In this document: positions 13,140 to 21,169 of the stretch, one piece after another | Layout: the number at the start of each line of letters is the position of its first letter | Numbering within the stretch: the first letter of the stretch is position 1 | Source of the DNA: a virus | Direction: 5' to 3' (one strand) | DNA: 25,637 nt | Virus record (IMG/VR): IMGVR_UViG_3300034061_001957 | Location: 1 to 25,637 of that record | Position numbers and translations under genes: made by a program | Notes under the pieces: generated by a model | The model's input: the letters and a program-made list of their open reading frames with translations, nothing else | Database searches by the model: none | What the model was told of the DNA's origin: nothing

Positions 13140-15044
13140 CTATCCATATGTTTCGTGCCATTGGTCTGCAAAGGCATCATCTAGGTTGATTGAGTATCTA
13201 TTATTTATCTGTGCTTTAGTAGCCCAACGATTGTTGGCATACATAGATGTATGACTATTAGACTGCATAAGTTCGCGGATGCGAATGACTGCAAACCACA
13301 GTGCCATAACAGTATCTGTTTTGCCTTTAGTATTTGGCTTCCAGGTCAACAGTTGTTGAGTAAGAGCCTTTATACCTTCACTGCCCTCAGAAGAAGGTAG
13401 TTCTATAATGTTGTTCTTTTGGAACTTTTCTTCTCGGATTGTGCCAAATAGGTTAGACATTGACGCAACGCCGAAGGATGTGTCCCACTTGTTTTTGCCT
13501 GTAAAGTGAGCATCAAGGCGTACGCCGTATCCAGCAAGCCAGTTTCGTAACTCGTCATCAAGGGAGTAGGCTTTTTGGTGGGCGTTGATTTCAACTCTAA
13601 ACTCTTGCGGTTTATATTTAATAACCAGTTCTTCAATTGTCGCCCTAATCTTTTGTGGAGTTGGCTCCGTCATGTTAATACAATCGTTAACGTAAATCTT
13701 GCCGTCTGCACGGTTGTAAGTACAAATTACAAATGCAGCGTTACCTGCCATAGCAGGGTCAAAGCCAACTACAATGTGAGGTTCTACTTGAGAAGGATGT
13801 CCAGCAGCACCAGGCTTTAGTGGACCTCGCTTGCGCATCCCGTTAGTTGACCCTTGCACCAACACGGGTGGGAAGATTGAATCCTCTTGTATATCCTCTT
13901 GCTGGTATACGAGTGCCCAAGTTGAGGGTGTGACTTCCGAGCGACGTCTAAATAAGGCTTGCCCGTCCCACTTGGGATAGAAGCCGTTTTCCTGAGGAGT
14001 GTCATCATCGCCATCCCACGGGACGTCCGACTCTTTCCAAAGAGTAACCCAATCTTGCGGTTTTTCTGAATACTCCAATACAGCAGGCATGCCCATATAA
14101 GTAAACGGAGTCTTGCCACCTGACCAATGCTTCGGATTGCGAAGTTCTTTATATAAATCATTTGATGCAATTCGTGTCCCAACGACTAGCAATTTACCAT
14201 TCTTACCCAAACGGGTAATAACTTCTTTCTGCAGCCAGTTAATCTGCTGTTCCCACTCATGAGCATTGGCTGTAGTTATACAGTCATCCAGAATAATTAG
14301 GTCAGCACGTGCACCGTAAATCTGACCACCCATACCTAACGCTTGGAGAGTCGGGTCTTTTTCACTTGAGTTACGCGCATCGCCCCCAAGATAGACAGTA
14401 TCGGTGCGCCAAGTATCTGCGTCCTGCTTCCAGCCGCCCTCTGGACCATATGCGGTCTGCAGTTTGAGCCAGCGTGGATGGGACAATCGTTGCTTTATAG
14501 CGTATACGAACTCTCGCGCCTTATTCAATGTCTTTGATACCACAATGATGCGGATGTTAGGATTGAGGGCAATGCGGTAAGTTGAATAGTTCACCGTGAT
14601 AACGGTGGACTTAGCGTGCTCAGGGGGCACATTAACCAGTAAGCGGTTTGACTCCCCTGGCTCATAAATCATACTAGGGTGTAACCACGAAGGTTCTTGC
14701 CCCTCAAGTAGGTCAACCCAATCTTGGTGATGTGGAAATACAGTTTGGTCTAAAAACAACTTTGAGAAGTCCTTAAAGGGAATTGACTCCTTCTCCATAC
14801 CAAGGCTGGCAAAAGATTTCTTCTCCGCGTCATCGCGGGCTTCCTCTAAGGAGCGAGCAAATGCTGGGTCGCGCATCATCCAGATTCTGGCGGTGTCTGG
14901 CTTCTTGCCTGCCTTAACCATTGCCGCCTGAAGAGACATTCCTGCCCTAACGGATTCTAGCACCTGCTCTTTGGCAACGGCTACACCCTTGGCGGCGAAG
15001 TGTTCCCCACCCTTTTGAAAACCACCTTTTGTCGCCACGTACAT
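13140..15044 (-). CDS. terL: Terminase large subunit (ATPase/nuclease DNA-packaging motor)
   Basis: This 634-aa protein packages DNA at the portal and cuts concatemers. The ATPase part shows a deviant Walker A at about residues 138-147 (NVPPEHAKST), Walker B at 249-254 (LIILDD) and a coupling GTR at 289-291. The nuclease part is RNase H-like with candidate metal ligands D429 (GFDPA), E485 (VEINA) and D577 (KTDTVMALWF). Residues about 25-75 precede the ATPase core and look like a helix-turn-helix small-terminase-type domain (VLESVRAGMSLQAAMVKAGK). No separate small terminase gene is seen nearby. It is the first gene of the leftward arm. ATG 15044 follows AGGGG with almost no spacing, so the exact start is less certain than the family. 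Confidence 0.93.
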   Translation of the reverse strand: MYVATKGGFQKGGEHFAAKGVAVAKEQVLESVRAGMSLQAAMVKAGKKPDTARIWMMRDPAFARSLEEARDDAEKKSFASLGMEKESIPFKDFSKLFLDQTVFPHHQDWVDLLEGQEPSWLHPSMIYEPGESNRLLVNVPPEHAKSTVITVNYSTYRIALNPNIRIIVVSKTLNKAREFVYAIKQRLSHPRWLKLQTAYGPEGGWKQDADTWRTDTVYLGGDARNSSEKDPTLQALGMGGQIYGARADLIILDDCITTANAHEWEQQINWLQKEVITRLGKNGKLLVVGTRIASNDLYKELRNPKHWSGGKTPFTYMGMPAVLEYSEKPQDWVTLWKESDVPWDGDDDTPQENGFYPKWDGQALFRRRSEVTPSTWALVYQQEDIQEDSIFPPVLVQGSTNGMRKRGPLKPGAAGHPSQVEPHIVVGFDPAMAGNAAFVICTYNRADGKIYVNDCINMTEPTPQKIRATIEELVIKYKPQEFRVEINAHQKAYSLDDELRNWLAGYGVRLDAHFTGKNKWDTSFGVASMSNLFGTIREEKFQKNNIIELPSSEGSEGIKALTQQLLTWKPNTKGKTDTVMALWFAVIRIRELMQSNSHTSMYANNRWATKAQINNRYSINLDDAFADQWHETYG

Positions 15045-15223
15045 CCCCTAACAGTTTATAGGCAGACTACGCCCATCCTACAGATAGTATTTTGTACAGT
15101 TGTTTGTACAGCATCTGAGCAAGGCTATAAAAGACTTGCGAAGATATTTACTGTTCTATATATACTTAATCCGTTCAAACAGTCTAAACGAACATATTCT
15201 ACAAAACTATTATAAAAGTGCAG
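15045..15223. promoter_or_regulatory. AT-rich divergent promoter region
   Basis: This stretch separates the leftward terminase operon from the rightward genes, so promoters must face both ways nearby. On the plus strand TTGTAC-N16-TATAAA (15104-15131) and TTGCGA-N17-TATATA (15136-15164) are plausible sigma70-like pairs. On the minus strand an exact TATAAT occurs at 15209-15214 but without a good -35. A direct repeat TTTGTACAG at 15091-15099 and 15103-15111, with the palindrome TGTACA in each copy, could be an operator. All are pattern matches only. Confidence 0.45.
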
Positions 15224-15960
15224 GTCAGACAGTATATTCCCCCTGTAACTATACTGACAGAAATATGTAGGTAGAGATACTGTAATATAACTGGTGCTGT
15301 ATTAAACAGTCTGGGGTCATACTGACCCTGTAGACTGTTTAATTGTGGTACAGATAGCAGTATGCTGGTGTAACAGTTACGGTAGTCTATCTGCTGGCAT
15401 GACTGCGGGACACAGTACTGTTCTGCATAAATGCCAGCATCTACCTGTGGCTGTGACTAAGACATGCCCATGCTGGGGTCTTGCCAGCACAGAGCCATGA
15501 CCTGTAGTCGGCATGCAAGCATGCCGATTCGCAGGCTCATGCTCTTGGCTCTCCAATCAGCAGAAGGCTCGGTGCCTTCTGATGTATTGGCTTAGGCTCA
15601 AGCACACCGAGTGTGCAAGTAGCAAGGCTGTCATGTTCAACGCTTCGAATGTCGAACTTAGTGAAGCGCTCCTTGCCATGGCTCGCGGAACATAAGGGCT
15701 ACCTCGGCATTGCCGTTGTCCAATCATGGTGTCCGCCAATTTCCTTGTGAGACTGTTCGCTCCGTTGCATGGGTAGAGTATTCGTCTTTGTGACCTCTTT
15801 CTACTATGGGTTTTCTGCGTGCTGCGGTGCTGCTACATGCAATCTGGCAGAGAACCTGCTGGTGTCAACCCCGCCGCGTCGTTCCTAGCGTCAGGGTCGG
15901 CGCTAGCGCCTTGACACTGGCGCAGAACCCCTGCCCTCATGCATTCTGCGCAACCGCGCA
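15224..15960 (+). ncRNA. Candidate large structured noncoding RNA (GOLLD/ROOL-like hypothesis)
   Basis: About 740 nt without a credible protein gene carry a dense chain of inverted repeats. Examples are CAGTATA 15230-15236 with TATACTG 15250-15256; CAGATAG 15351-15357 with CTATCTG 15387-15393; GCTGGCAT 15393-15400 with ATGCCAGC 15431-15438; AGAGCCA 15491-15497 with TGGCTCT 15546-15552, enclosing TCGGCATGC 15508-15516 with GCATGCCGA 15519-15527; CAGAAGGC 15561-15568 with GCCTTCTG 15574-15581; GCACAC 15602-15607 with GTGTGC 15611-15616; and GCAAGG 15622-15627 with CCTTGC 15671-15676, enclosing CGCTTC and GAAGCG. The 3' part nests ATGCA 15837-15841/TGCAT 15940-15944, GGCAG/CTGCC and GTGTCAA 15862-15868/TTGACAC 15911-15917 around the palindrome GGCGCTAGCGCC at 15899-15910. 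Length and phage setting match the GOLLD/ROOL class, but I cannot confirm the consensus. The plus strand is inferred from the downstream gene. A replication origin is the main alternative. Confidence 0.6.
15301..15343. repeat. Long composite hairpin, 12-bp plus 6-bp stems
   Basis: ATTAAACAGTCT at 15301-15312 is perfectly complementary to AGACTGTTTAAT at 15332-15343. Inside it GGGTCA (15314-15319) pairs with TGACCC (15323-15328) around a TAC loop, leaving only a single-G/TGT internal bulge. It is the strongest individual hairpin in the gap. No T-run follows, so a normal terminator is unlikely. It may be a domain of the candidate RNA or a protein-binding site between the two arms. Confidence 0.75.
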
Positions 15961-15993
15961 ACTTGAAAACTCCAAAGTGAAAGAAGGTCCACA

Positions 15994-16383
15994 ATGTCCG
16001 AACACATCTACTCCATTCACGGGGCTGAACTGGTCTCACTGAAAATAGGCGTCGCCAAGAATGGCAACGCTTATGCCAGCGGCATCCTGAATGTTCGCGA
16101 TGCGAATGGCAAGTTCGAAGCATCACATAAGTTCTTGTCATTCGATGCAGTTGACGCATTCCGCATCTTGCAACTGCACTACTTCGGTGAGCAATCACCT
16201 AATCCTGATACATCAGGCGGTGACCTCGCCTTCGCAGATGGTGAGCCTGAGAGCACCGAGACCCGCGAACGAACAGTTGCCAAGGCAACTGTTCGCCCAC
16301 AGGTTGATGTCTCTGGCTGGTTCAAGACCAGCAAGATGGGCAATGCTTGGGTCACATCCTACATGGTAGAGGCTGTGCAATAA
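15994..16383 (+). CDS. Two-repeat OB-like protein, possibly ssDNA-binding
   Basis: This 129-aa protein begins at ATG 15994 behind AGAAGG. It contains two similar beta-hairpin units: AKNGNAYASGILNV near residues 21-34 and SKMGNAWVTSYMVEAV at the end. They share K-x-G-N-A-aromatic-x-Ser/Thr and are separated by an acidic, Pro/Thr-rich linker. Such hairpins occur in OB-fold single-strand-binding proteins, so an SSB-like role is plausible but unproven. It is the first protein gene of the right arm, sits directly after the structured region and is closed by its own strong terminator. Its codons are richer in G and C at third positions than those of the following genes, suggesting high expression or a different origin. 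Confidence 0.75.
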   Translation: MSEHIYSIHGAELVSLKIGVAKNGNAYASGILNVRDANGKFEASHKFLSFDAVDAFRILQLHYFGEQSPNPDTSGGDLAFADGEPESTETRERTVAKATVRPQVDVSGWFKTSKMGNAWVTSYMVEAVQ

Positions 16384-16397
16384 GCAGAACAGAAAAA

Positions 16398-16423
16398 CCC
16401 TCTCCTTCGGAGAGGGTTTTTTT
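16398..16423 (+). terminator. Strong intrinsic terminator
   Basis: CCCTCTCC (16398-16405) and GGAGAGGG (16409-16416) form a perfect 8-bp stem with a TTC loop, followed by seven T. An A-tract precedes the stem, so it could also work leftward. It ends the unit containing the structured region and the two-repeat OB-like gene. Confidence 0.95.
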
Positions 16424-16464
16424 GTGCCCGCAGTTTGTGATGTGGGTTGAGGTGAGGGTTTGTA

Positions 16465-16493
16465 TTATCGGTAAATCACCGATAAGTACTAGA
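16465..16493 (+). promoter_or_regulatory. Operator/promoter element with palindrome, copy 1
   Basis: TTATCGGT (16465-16472) and ACCGATAA (16478-16485) form a perfect 8-nt inverted repeat with a 5-nt spacer. The right half begins the 16-nt sequence ACCGATAAGTACTAGA, which recurs with 14 of 16 matches at 18342-18357, again 15-20 nt before the first gene of an operon. Shared placement after a terminator and before a ribosome site suggests a phage promoter or a regulator site. Confidence 0.55.
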
Positions 16494-16507
16494 GAAAGGT
16501 AAGTGCT

Positions 16508-16679: not shown

Positions 16680-16958
16680 ATGGATAATCATTATGTAGTT
16701 GTTGATTGTCGTATGTGTCAGAAATGGTACTACATTTCTGCTACGCCTGAGCAACAAGAGGAGATGGATAAGCCTCGTTCTGAGCGTAAGTTTATGCAGG
16801 ATATATTCCCTGAACTGCCTATTGAGGACAGGGAATTACTAATTAGTGGTACTTGTGGTACCTGCTGGGATAAGTTATTCCCTAAAGAAACAGAGGAGCA
16901 TGACGAGTTCGTCGATGCAGAGTTCCATCTGACGAGTGATAAAAAGGAGGAAGAATAA
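16680..16958 (+). CDS. Zinc-ribbon early protein
   Basis: This 92-aa protein starts at ATG 16680, one base after the stop of the previous gene. A longer frame from 16572 exists but overlaps that gene and lacks support. The CRMC motif near residues 10-13 and CGTC near 59-62 make a second CxxC/CxxC zinc-ribbon candidate. The middle is charged and helical (ATPEQQEEMDKPRSERKF) and the C-terminus is acidic (SDKKEEE). With the preceding gene and the one at 17423 it makes three zinc-ribbon genes in one short operon, flanking the NADAR gene. The function is unknown; protein or nucleic-acid binding is likely. Confidence 0.75.
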   Translation: MDNHYVVVDCRMCQKWYYISATPEQQEEMDKPRSERKFMQDIFPELPIEDRELLISGTCGTCWDKLFPKETEEHDEFVDAEFHLTSDKKEEE

Positions 16959-16959
16959 G

Positions 16960-17364
16960 ATGATAGATAGTATCAAAGGTACATTCCTATCTAACTTCTG
17001 GGAATGTAGTGTAGTGTATGAAGGTATGCACTATAGGAACGCAGAGGCTGCGTTCCAAGCGCAGAAGTGTACTAATCCTACCGATAAGTACAGGTTTATA
17101 TCAGCGAATGGTGCTGAAGCCAAGGCTATGGGTAAGAAGGTAGACCTGCGTGAGGATTGGGATGCTGTAAAACTAGACGTTATGTATAAAGTCTTACAGC
17201 ATAAGTTTGCGCAGAACCCTGAGTTATACAACCAGTTGAAGGATACAGGTACGGAAGAAATAGTTGAAGGTAACTGGTGGTATGACAAGTATTGGGGTGT
17301 GTGCAATGGTGAAGGACTGAATCACTTAGGCAAGTTGCTTATGTGGATTAGGGATAATGAATAA
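16960..17364 (+). CDS. NADAR-family N-glycosidase (YbiA-like)
   Basis: This 134-aa protein closely follows the NADAR (YbiA/COG3236) pattern: FLSNFWECSV at residues 9-18, the conserved helix with NAEAAFQAQK at 27-36 (E29 likely catalytic), DWDAVKLDVMYKVLQHKFAQNPEL at 66-89, TGTEEIVEG around 96-104, WG at 112-113 and NHLGKLLMWIR at 121-131. The full family length is present. Members cleave N-glycosidic bonds in NAD/ADP-ribose-like or riboflavin-intermediate substrates, and some remove ADP-ribose from guanine in DNA as partners of DarT-type toxins. In a phage it may reverse ADP-ribosylation defence or act in NAD metabolism. ATG 16960 has AAGGAGG upstream. The exact substrate cannot be told from sequence. 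Confidence 0.88.
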   Translation: MIDSIKGTFLSNFWECSVVYEGMHYRNAEAAFQAQKCTNPTDKYRFISANGAEAKAMGKKVDLREDWDAVKLDVMYKVLQHKFAQNPELYNQLKDTGTEEIVEGNWWYDKYWGVCNGEGLNHLGKLLMWIRDNE

Positions 17365-19316: not shown

Positions 19317-19464
19317 CATCTATAGCGTATGTATAGTGTTCAATGTCGAAGCATCGAATGATGAAGAGGCATTAAGAACGATAGCAGATGCACTACCCCG
19401 TAATCGCAACAACATGTCGTGGTCATGGGTATACACAACACTAACAGAAGGAGAGAGAATATGA
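19303..19464 (+). CDS. 53-aa hypothetical protein
   Basis: I chose ATG 19303, which has ATTGGAGG just before it and overlaps the end of the lysozyme-like gene by 14 nt. An earlier in-frame start at 19231 lies deep inside that gene. The protein is a short beta-alpha-beta-like unit: NIYSVCIVFNVEA, then SNDEEALRTIADAL, then MSWSWVYTTL. That pattern resembles small ferredoxin-like or ACT-like folds, as in several other tiny proteins of this operon. The stop overlaps the next start. The function is unknown. Confidence 0.7.
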   Translation: MDGTNIYSVCIVFNVEASNDEEALRTIADALPRNRNNMSWSWVYTTLTEGERI

Positions 19465-19967
19465 CACAGACAATGACAATGAGTGACCGACTCGTAGAGT
19501 TGGGTGATTTAGTAAGCAACGAGGATGTAACAATCCAGCGTGCTGGAGCAGAAATGATTGAGCATTTCTTTGAGACGCACAAGCAAGGAGACAATGTAGA
19601 TGAGGCTACAGTAGCCCAACTACTCTTCTACTTAACAGACATTCAAGTGCGTGACTATGCGCTAGGTCTACTAGATATAACACAGTATAGATTCGAGGAA
19701 GCACTACAGTTCTTGCTTGAGTCAGCACCAACAGATACTATCTACATCAGTGGACCAGCATGCTTGCTTGCTGCATTGCAGTATGAGCAGGGCAACACAG
19801 CAGATGCATTCCTTACATTAACAAATGCACAGCCAGACTACTCACTCAATAGACTATTGCAGCGTGTATTCCGGGCAAGTTGGGAACGCAATGGCTTTGC
19901 CAAGATGCGCGCCGAACTACATCCACAGGTAACAGCAGGTATCTTTGGAGATAGTACTGATGAGTAA
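19461..19967 (+). CDS. DUF4192-like protein
   Basis: This 168-aa protein starts at ATG 19461, overlapping the previous stop and preceded by AGAAGGAGAGAG. A longer frame from 19419 lacks a ribosome site. The C-terminal half resembles the end of DUF4192 proteins, which are common in actinobacteria and their phages: VRDYALGLLD, then CLLAALQYEQGNTADAFLTLT, then DYSLNRLLQRVF. The A-x-x-x-x-x-G-x-x-x-x-A pattern also resembles a TPR unit. The N-terminal half (VTIQRAGAEMIEHFFE) is shorter than in full-length members. The biochemical role of DUF4192 is not established. Confidence 0.75.
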   Translation: MTQTMTMSDRLVELGDLVSNEDVTIQRAGAEMIEHFFETHKQGDNVDEATVAQLLFYLTDIQVRDYALGLLDITQYRFEEALQFLLESAPTDTIYISGPACLLAALQYEQGNTADAFLTLTNAQPDYSLNRLLQRVFRASWERNGFAKMRAELHPQVTAGIFGDSTDE

Positions 19968-20160
19968 CAATACTCTAAAAATACGAGCACAAGCAGCAAG
20001 TTATGCTAAGACATTCCTTGCTAACAAATACCGCGATGAGTATGACGAACTGTATCGGGCATACTTAGTAAACCGTGGCGTTACTACTCGAACAAGCAGG
20101 AATATGGTAGACGAAAGAAAACTAACAACAGAAGGAGAGAACAATGCTGCAAGTAAGTGA
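19960..20160 (+). CDS. Small basic helical protein, 66 aa
   Basis: ATG 19960 is preceded by TTGGAGA and overlaps the end of the DUF4192-like gene by 8 nt. A TTG five codons earlier is less likely. The protein is helical and basic with many Tyr and Arg residues (AQAASYAKTFLANKYRDEYDELYRAYL, then RGVTTRTSRNMVDERK). It overlaps the start of the next gene by 17 nt. The charge and helix pattern would allow nucleic-acid binding, but no motif is recognised. Confidence 0.65.
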   Translation: MSNNTLKIRAQAASYAKTFLANKYRDEYDELYRAYLVNRGVTTRTSRNMVDERKLTTEGENNAASK

Positions 20161-21169
20161 AGAATATAATAACAAATCAGTGGCTAAACTAAACAAGCAG
20201 GCTTGGGTAAAGGCTGGCACTGCAGTTAATGCTGGCTCTGCATCAGAGGCTGCACGACAGGCTGGTCTTGATTGGAATGTAATGCTTGCAGATATGCAGG
20301 CATATGTTTCTAATGAGGTCAATGCATACGAGACAGTAACAGATTACTATCCCGTACCTAAGAAACAAGCAGTAATCAAACTTGGCAAAGACAATACCAA
20401 TGAAGTTATTGGTGTAGTTGGTGACAAGTACAAGGTAGTGCAAAACATGGAAGTATTTAGTGCGCTAGATACACTGGTAGATTCAGGTGATGCACGCTAT
20501 ACAGCAGCAGGTGAATACAATAACGGTGCTAACATCTGGATGGTTATGGAACTACCTATAGGTGTACAAGTAGCCAATGACCCACATGCTGCGTTCTTAC
20601 TAGTCCAATCATCACATGATGGTTCATGTGCAGTACGTATCCGCCCTATCATTGAGCGTTTGTATTGCATGAATCAAATCAACCGCATCATTAAGGGTAA
20701 ACATAAAAATGATTACACTTATACCATGAAGCACACTACTAACTCTGAGTTGTCAGTCAATGACATTCGCAACATCACTCAGTTAACTTATGATTCTATT
20801 CAACAGTATGAAACAATAGCAGGTACGCTATTAGAACGTAAGGTTGATGAGCGTCAGGTACGTAACATCTTTAAGTCTATCTGGGCATTGCCTTCAGAAG
20901 TTGAAGATGCACCTGACCATTTGTTATCACAAGGTCAACGTCGTCAACGTACCATTGCACTTAATGGTCGTGACTCTGCATGGAATATCTATAGCCAATC
21001 ACCTACACAAGAAAACATTAGAGGCACAGCCTTTGGTGTATGGCAAGCAGTCATTGAACACGCAGACCATTATGGTTCTGGTGGCGCTGACCGCCGTGCA
21101 GTCGCCACCATTAGTGGACGCAATGACCGCATCAAAGATAAAGCACTAGACCTAGTGCTTACAGTATAG
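20144..21169 (+). CDS. DUF932 / phage-plasmid TIGR03299-like protein
   Basis: This 341-aa protein matches the DUF932 family found in phages and plasmids: an N-terminal part with YYPVPKKQAVIK, then the hallmark GVVGDKYKVVQNMEVFSALDTLV near residues 89-112, followed by ANIWMVMELPIGVQV, an SSHDGSCAVRIRPIIERLYCMN block and a helical C-terminus with TAFGVWQAVIEHADHY. ATG 20144 follows GAAGGAGAGAACA. The precise role of the family is not established; it is often near DNA-metabolism genes, as here. A perfect 9-bp hairpin lies in its last codons (separate entry). Confidence 0.85.
   Translation: MLQVSEEYNNKSVAKLNKQAWVKAGTAVNAGSASEAARQAGLDWNVMLADMQAYVSNEVNAYETVTDYYPVPKKQAVIKLGKDNTNEVIGVVGDKYKVVQNMEVFSALDTLVDSGDARYTAAGEYNNGANIWMVMELPIGVQVANDPHAAFLLVQSSHDGSCAVRIRPIIERLYCMNQINRIIKGKHKNDYTYTMKHTTNSELSVNDIRNITQLTYDSIQQYETIAGTLLERKVDERQVRNIFKSIWALPSEVEDAPDHLLSQGQRRQRTIALNGRDSAWNIYSQSPTQENIRGTAFGVWQAVIEHADHYGSGGADRRAVATISGRNDRIKDKALDLVLTV

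Follow-up and report, generated by a model that had tools for sequence, protein, structure and literature searches.

The window analysed here, a virus record of 25.6 kb, carries two gene arms separated by a frame-free gap of about 700 nt. The left arm, on the minus strand, encodes TerL, portal, a 1692-aa protein and the major head protein; the right arm, on the plus strand, holds small genes, an exonuclease and a DnaB-type helicase. TerL is an ordinary large-subunit terminase, and none of the scanned proteins could be recognised as a small terminase. The features flanking the gap are:

13140 to 15044, minus strand: terL, which opens the left (late) arm (PHROG 38, E 7.8e-67), co-directional with the RNA proposed below
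15166 to 15193, no strand assigned: inverted element TTAATCCGTTCAAA-N6-AAACGAAC in the divergent promoter block, found in >100 relatives
15273 to 15318, no strand assigned: AGAGATAC followed at a constant distance by GGGGTC, with 41 nt between AGAGATAC and the start of GGGTC
15994 to 16383, plus strand: gene for a 129-aa protein of no known family, first gene of the right arm
16395 to 16425, no strand assigned: terminator-like, bidirectional hairpin 3' of the gene at 15994

Within the gene at 15994, a hairpin GAACAGTTGCC/GGCAACTGTTC at 16270-16295 coincides with strong folding on both strands. Further into the right arm lie genes for a NADAR protein (16936-17364; Pfam, E 5.7e-25), a DUF4192 protein (19419-19967) and a DUF932 protein (20144-21169). 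The nearest isolates are the Planktophila phages LanE43AprE7 (E7) and AprF5 (F5) (OX376640/OX376641), with TerL 63% identical, whilst blastn against phage records gave no match and no TerL relatives were found in GTDB genomes. Given the DUF4192 protein and the isolation of E7 and F5 on Planktophila (PMC10202952), this phage and its relatives probably infect freshwater Actinobacteriota belonging to the order Ca. Nanopelagicales.

The sequence-only reading had taken 15224-15960 for a gene-free stretch dense in inverted repeats, and both observations held. No ORF is conserved there on either strand, the ORF clusters in the gap being overlapping frames of near relatives only, and the inverted repeats are real, several of them perfect (15301-15312 pairs with 15332-15343 at 12 of 12 positions). 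The whole region folds with minimum free energies of -302.8 (plus) and -279.3 (minus) kcal/mol, corresponding to z-scores of -4.7 and -6.0 against dinucleotide shuffles of each strand. In 200-nt windows the strongest folding fell at 15251-15450 (z -9 to -4 on the plus strand), and 15601-15750 showed no excess (z about 0 to +1 on the plus strand). Because of this, and because the stem 15622-15627/15671-15676 is lost in relatives L084-L086, the nested domain suggested at 15622-15676 is unsupported. Two other suggested domains fared better: the inner stem of 15491-15552 changes on both sides in relatives, and 15837-15944 proved to be merely the apex of a rod that extends over 15778-16008. That rod overruns the start codon at 15994, so that the hairpin-rich region is borne out but its right end had been placed wrongly. 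We resolve the element into the following parts, all placed on the minus strand as the more probable one:

15288 to 16008, minus strand: whole structured element as a predicted RNA, 5' end at the right; delimited from folding, conserved place and the strand bias of mismatches
15301 to 15343, minus strand: P1, the leftmost helix, a long hairpin closed by GGGTC/GACCC, with perfect 12-bp arms and two-sided covariation
15392 to 15439, minus strand: P2, a two-part stem-loop (inverted repeat I1), retained within the close clade, where changes touch one side of the stem
15446 to 15470, minus strand: P3, a hairpin from the fold with Watson-Crick pairs only, mostly kept in the clade
15491 to 15552, minus strand: P4, a nested domain with an inner hairpin (15508-15527) whose stem varies on both sides
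15553 to 15590, minus strand: P5, a hairpin with a 15-bp stem, one pair of which varies in the clade, the rest being invariant
15602 to 15616, minus strand: P6, a small hairpin partly changed in L084-L086
15778 to 16008, minus strand: P7, a rod of ~230 nt with regularly spaced single mismatches, drawn from folding and two-sided changes in relatives

The arms of the P4 inner stem change in L084-L086 from CGGCATGC/GCATGCCG to TGGCATGC/GCATGCCA to TGGCACGC/GCGTGCCA. The right arm of P7 spans the start codon of the plus-strand gene at 15994 together with its ribosome-binding site. An internal loop GAAC/GAAC, reading GUUC/GUUC on the minus strand, is conserved in the rod.

To place the gap in its family, we collected 343 relatives by TerL in IMG/VR and fetched 80 of them, adding more through the 15994 gene and an operator-like pattern. 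In about 100 distinct relatives, terL is likewise flanked by a gap that lacks reading frames and is rich in hairpins, 207-1484 nt long (median 647, n=97). The gap sequence diverges quickly among relatives while the hairpins persist: across 76 non-redundant gaps we counted 192 perfect stems of length at least 8, compared with 33 in shuffles and 109 in adjacent coding sequence. The first gene after the gap is Cys-rich in 54 cases, of the 15994 family in 20, SLOG-like in 12, DUF4326-like in 8 and something else in 3, where the labels SLOG and DUF4326 were assigned by eye. There are thus at least four unrelated kinds of first right-hand gene, and the element is unlikely to be a private leader of the 15994 gene. 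Together with the NADAR protein in the window, the SLOG-like and DUF4326-like genes may possibly reflect a counter-defence related to NAD or ADP-ribose. One locus of the 60 scanned has a tRNA-Arg between the conserved block and terL (L076:5902-5974). A second recurrent module, GTCAAATC-stem-CTATTC(A/G)GCAGAGC..GATT(G/T)CTC with variable inner hairpins, was seen in the gaps of L022, L040, L128 and others.

Homologous gaps show two-sided covariation at three places, in each case above shuffled and/or slid controls, as generally expected of a structured RNA. One unit is a module we call R1, which in the minus reading consists of a variable stem of 9-12 bp (TTGTCAAG..CTTGACAA), a symmetric purine-rich internal loop with the conserved unpaired motifs GGAATGAA/GAAGGGA, and a variable outer stem. 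A model of R1 gave 49 hits with 34 distinct sequences. Two-sided change was found in 14/18 pairs, and covariation was 0.323 compared with 0.105 when shuffled and <=0.088 with slid partners (34 distinct rows), in an alignment (A4) fitted to its own model, which favours the structure. At loci holding the operator-like element, R1 copies lie 304-319 nt from it, with one at 242. The R1-context matches of a pattern search in viral contigs all came from this phage family; other matches look like chance hairpins. The window itself has no R1 match; the P4 inner hairpin, which changes on both sides, sits at a similar place and is roughly the positional counterpart of the variable 9-bp hairpin of relatives. 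R1 and the exact operator sequence were not found in E7 and F5. P1 gave a covariation of 0.166 compared with 0.037 for shuffles (30 distinct sequences, registers picked by Watson-Crick pairs alone). The rod is common to relatives with the 15994 gene, with z-scores of -4 to -15 (16 sequences), and its two-sided Watson-Crick changes reached 0.198 against <=0.093 in slid controls.

Nearly all relatives share a conserved promoter-like block with that at 15061-15289. It includes the inverted element at 15166-15193, a probable operator, of which E7 and F5 carry a similar version. GGGTC starts exactly 41 nt from AGAGATAC in 91/96 distinct phages having AGAGATAC, and this spacing is constant though the intervening sequence is largely hypervariable and indels are common elsewhere; the pair may possibly be a bipartite protein site or a promoter for a phage sigma factor. 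A plus-strand promoter-like site at 15254-15281 overlaps the AGAGATAC element, and such plus-strand sites showed no enrichment in the family. Sigma-70 promoters were nowhere above shuffles, with none enriched on the minus strand at the right end of the gap; intrinsic terminators at the gap ends were scattered and none was common to relatives. A small hairpin at 15119-15139, in the terL leader, has a closing part GNAAG..CTTNC that covaries across relatives.

Folding z-scores did not distinguish the strands, and GNRA and UNCG tetraloops, which are rare in the gaps, unlike in most ornate RNAs, were too few for a strand test. We also counted single (1x1) mismatches in folds free of G.U pairs. In plus-strand letters these comprised 69 A.C, 19 G.T, 45 C.T and 15 A.G, against shuffle values of 18.7, 14, 20.7 and 10.7, respectively. 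The excess of A.C and C.T means that the mismatches are mainly G.U and G.A on the minus strand, and G.U and G.A are the mismatches best tolerated in RNA helices. The A.C to G.T counts were 60 versus 12 in the first 500 nt of the gap and 8 versus 7 further on; with duplicated contexts counted once, the gap gave 48 versus 16. The bias is absent in the right-hand gene (24 versus 27) and in the terL leader (9 versus 5). Within helices the minus-strand reading gave 20 G.U versus 2 A.C cells in R1 and 22 versus 3 in the inner pairs 3-13 of P1. Thus, G.U is preferred over A.C on the minus strand, more weakly so in pairwise change events (A.C 25 versus G.T 17), and the window's own clade shows no mismatch bias (30 versus 33 cells). 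Hairpin loops are A-rich on the plus strand, and hence U-rich on the minus. The sequence-only reading had named no strand; selection has likely acted on structure in the minus strand, in the same direction as terL. We go no further than this because related sequences are non-independent, change events counted pairwise show the bias less clearly, and a similar bias would be expected of single-stranded DNA.

The hairpins could instead act in DNA, as single-stranded minus-strand structures serving as a replication origin, primosome or packaging-initiation site. A position adjoining terL at the minimum of cumulative GC skew would suit this, as would the good tolerance of DNA for G.T mismatches, the scarcity of stable RNA tetraloops, the T-rich minus-strand loops and the failure to find a promoter. 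However, the skew minimum is confounded by the switch in gene direction, and the length, the number of separate covarying helices, the purine-rich symmetric internal loop and the G.U pairs within helices all look like RNA. We consider a DNA-level element unlikely. A plus-strand RNA or 5' leader of the early arm, made from the conserved promoter block and using the rod to hide the ribosome-binding site of the first gene, was our first idea and was dropped after the mismatch test. Although the promoter-like site at 15254-15281, the fixed 41-nt spacing to P1, the A-rich plus-strand loops and the pairing of the ribosome-binding site and start codon of the 15994 gene in the rod are in its favour, the mismatch bias favours the minus strand and the first right-hand gene varies within the family, making such a leader rather unlikely.

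An RNA for DNA packaging, like the prohead RNA (pRNA) of phi29, is improbable: the element is far longer than that RNA, the terminase is a large subunit of the usual type, and location is the sole functional hint. What speaks for it is that the gap adjoins the gene for the packaging ATPase and is co-directional with it, that shape is kept as a hypervariable sequence drifts, and that a small terminase went unrecognised among the proteins scanned. Perfect inverted repeats might also be upheld by template-switch repair during replication, with no selection on structure; many stems are indeed perfect and mosaic, and modules recur across phages. This is highly improbable given the conserved unpaired motifs of the R1 loop, the fixed distance to the operator, the conserved mismatches of an imperfect rod and the confinement of the mismatch bias to the gap.

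Our preferred reading, with a probability of about 0.6, is that the gap encodes a large structured RNA on the minus strand, directed towards terL, which is probably untranslated and is either a standalone RNA or a late leader. Its location, the missing frame, the folding and the covariation are observed directly, the minus strand is favoured rather than proven, and we infer that the gap is transcribed and that its product binds protein by shape. The RNA would be about 700 nt long in this phage, within a family range of about 300-900 nt, and would be read leftwards towards terL and the DNA-packaging genes. It would act through its shape, whether standing alone or heading the late operon as a 5' leader, and would most likely bind a phage or host protein during infection. 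Co-direction with terL, and the lack of a tie to one right-hand gene, make a private leader of that gene unlikely. A more specific proposal, which is speculative and distinctly unlikely, is that this is an RNA of freshwater actinophages whose helices are almost wholly rewritten between phages, with no change of shape or location, forming part of a phage machine (e.g. for packaging or late transcription) of which each phage has a private version. GOLLD and ROOL are among the few large structured RNAs known from phages; the element here would add another. With >100 sequenced relatives, two cultured phages with the same locus plan, and hosts that are probably Nanopelagicales, abundant in freshwater, the quick compensatory change should make the structure solvable from sequence and the function testable in culture.

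Family-wide covariation, and a place conserved without a reading frame, give good support to the earlier suggestion that the phage encodes a large structured RNA, whereas its tentative link to GOLLD or ROOL is not: the window and 13 relatives gave no match to the Rfam models of GOLLD, ROOL, HEARO or OLE at gathering score, and 15000-16500 gave none even at E up to 5. The observation that no tRNA lies beside the element was correct, as there is none in the window. The phi29 pRNA keeps its shape as its sequence drifts and is encoded near packaging genes; RNAs of this type are about 120-174 nt and belong to phages with protein-primed replication. The element here likewise adjoins the packaging ATPase gene and conserves shape over a drifting sequence, but its gap is far longer (median 647 nt) and the phage has an ordinary TerL and a DnaB-type helicase. 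GOLLD is often encoded near tRNA genes. Like GOLLD, the element is large, structured, untranslated on our reading, found in phages and lake metagenomes, and part well conserved and part variable; unlike GOLLD, it lacks an Rfam match, is not beside tRNA genes and has few GNRA loops. GOLLD forms an RNA-only nanocage and is expressed at phage lysis (PMC12286853). ROOL is similarly phage-encoded, ornate and several hundred nt long (PMC12286853), but here there is no Rfam match and no tRNA island, and the stems are almost wholly variable at a constant location. The element is most likely a new family of large RNAs encoded by phages, although absence from the open-access literature searched is no proof of this; the available text of the E7/F5 paper (PMC10202952) does not mention such an RNA. 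The closest likeness in cultured phages is in E7 and F5 themselves, which have a gap in the same place, an operator-like repeat and a TTAAACA..GGTC element.
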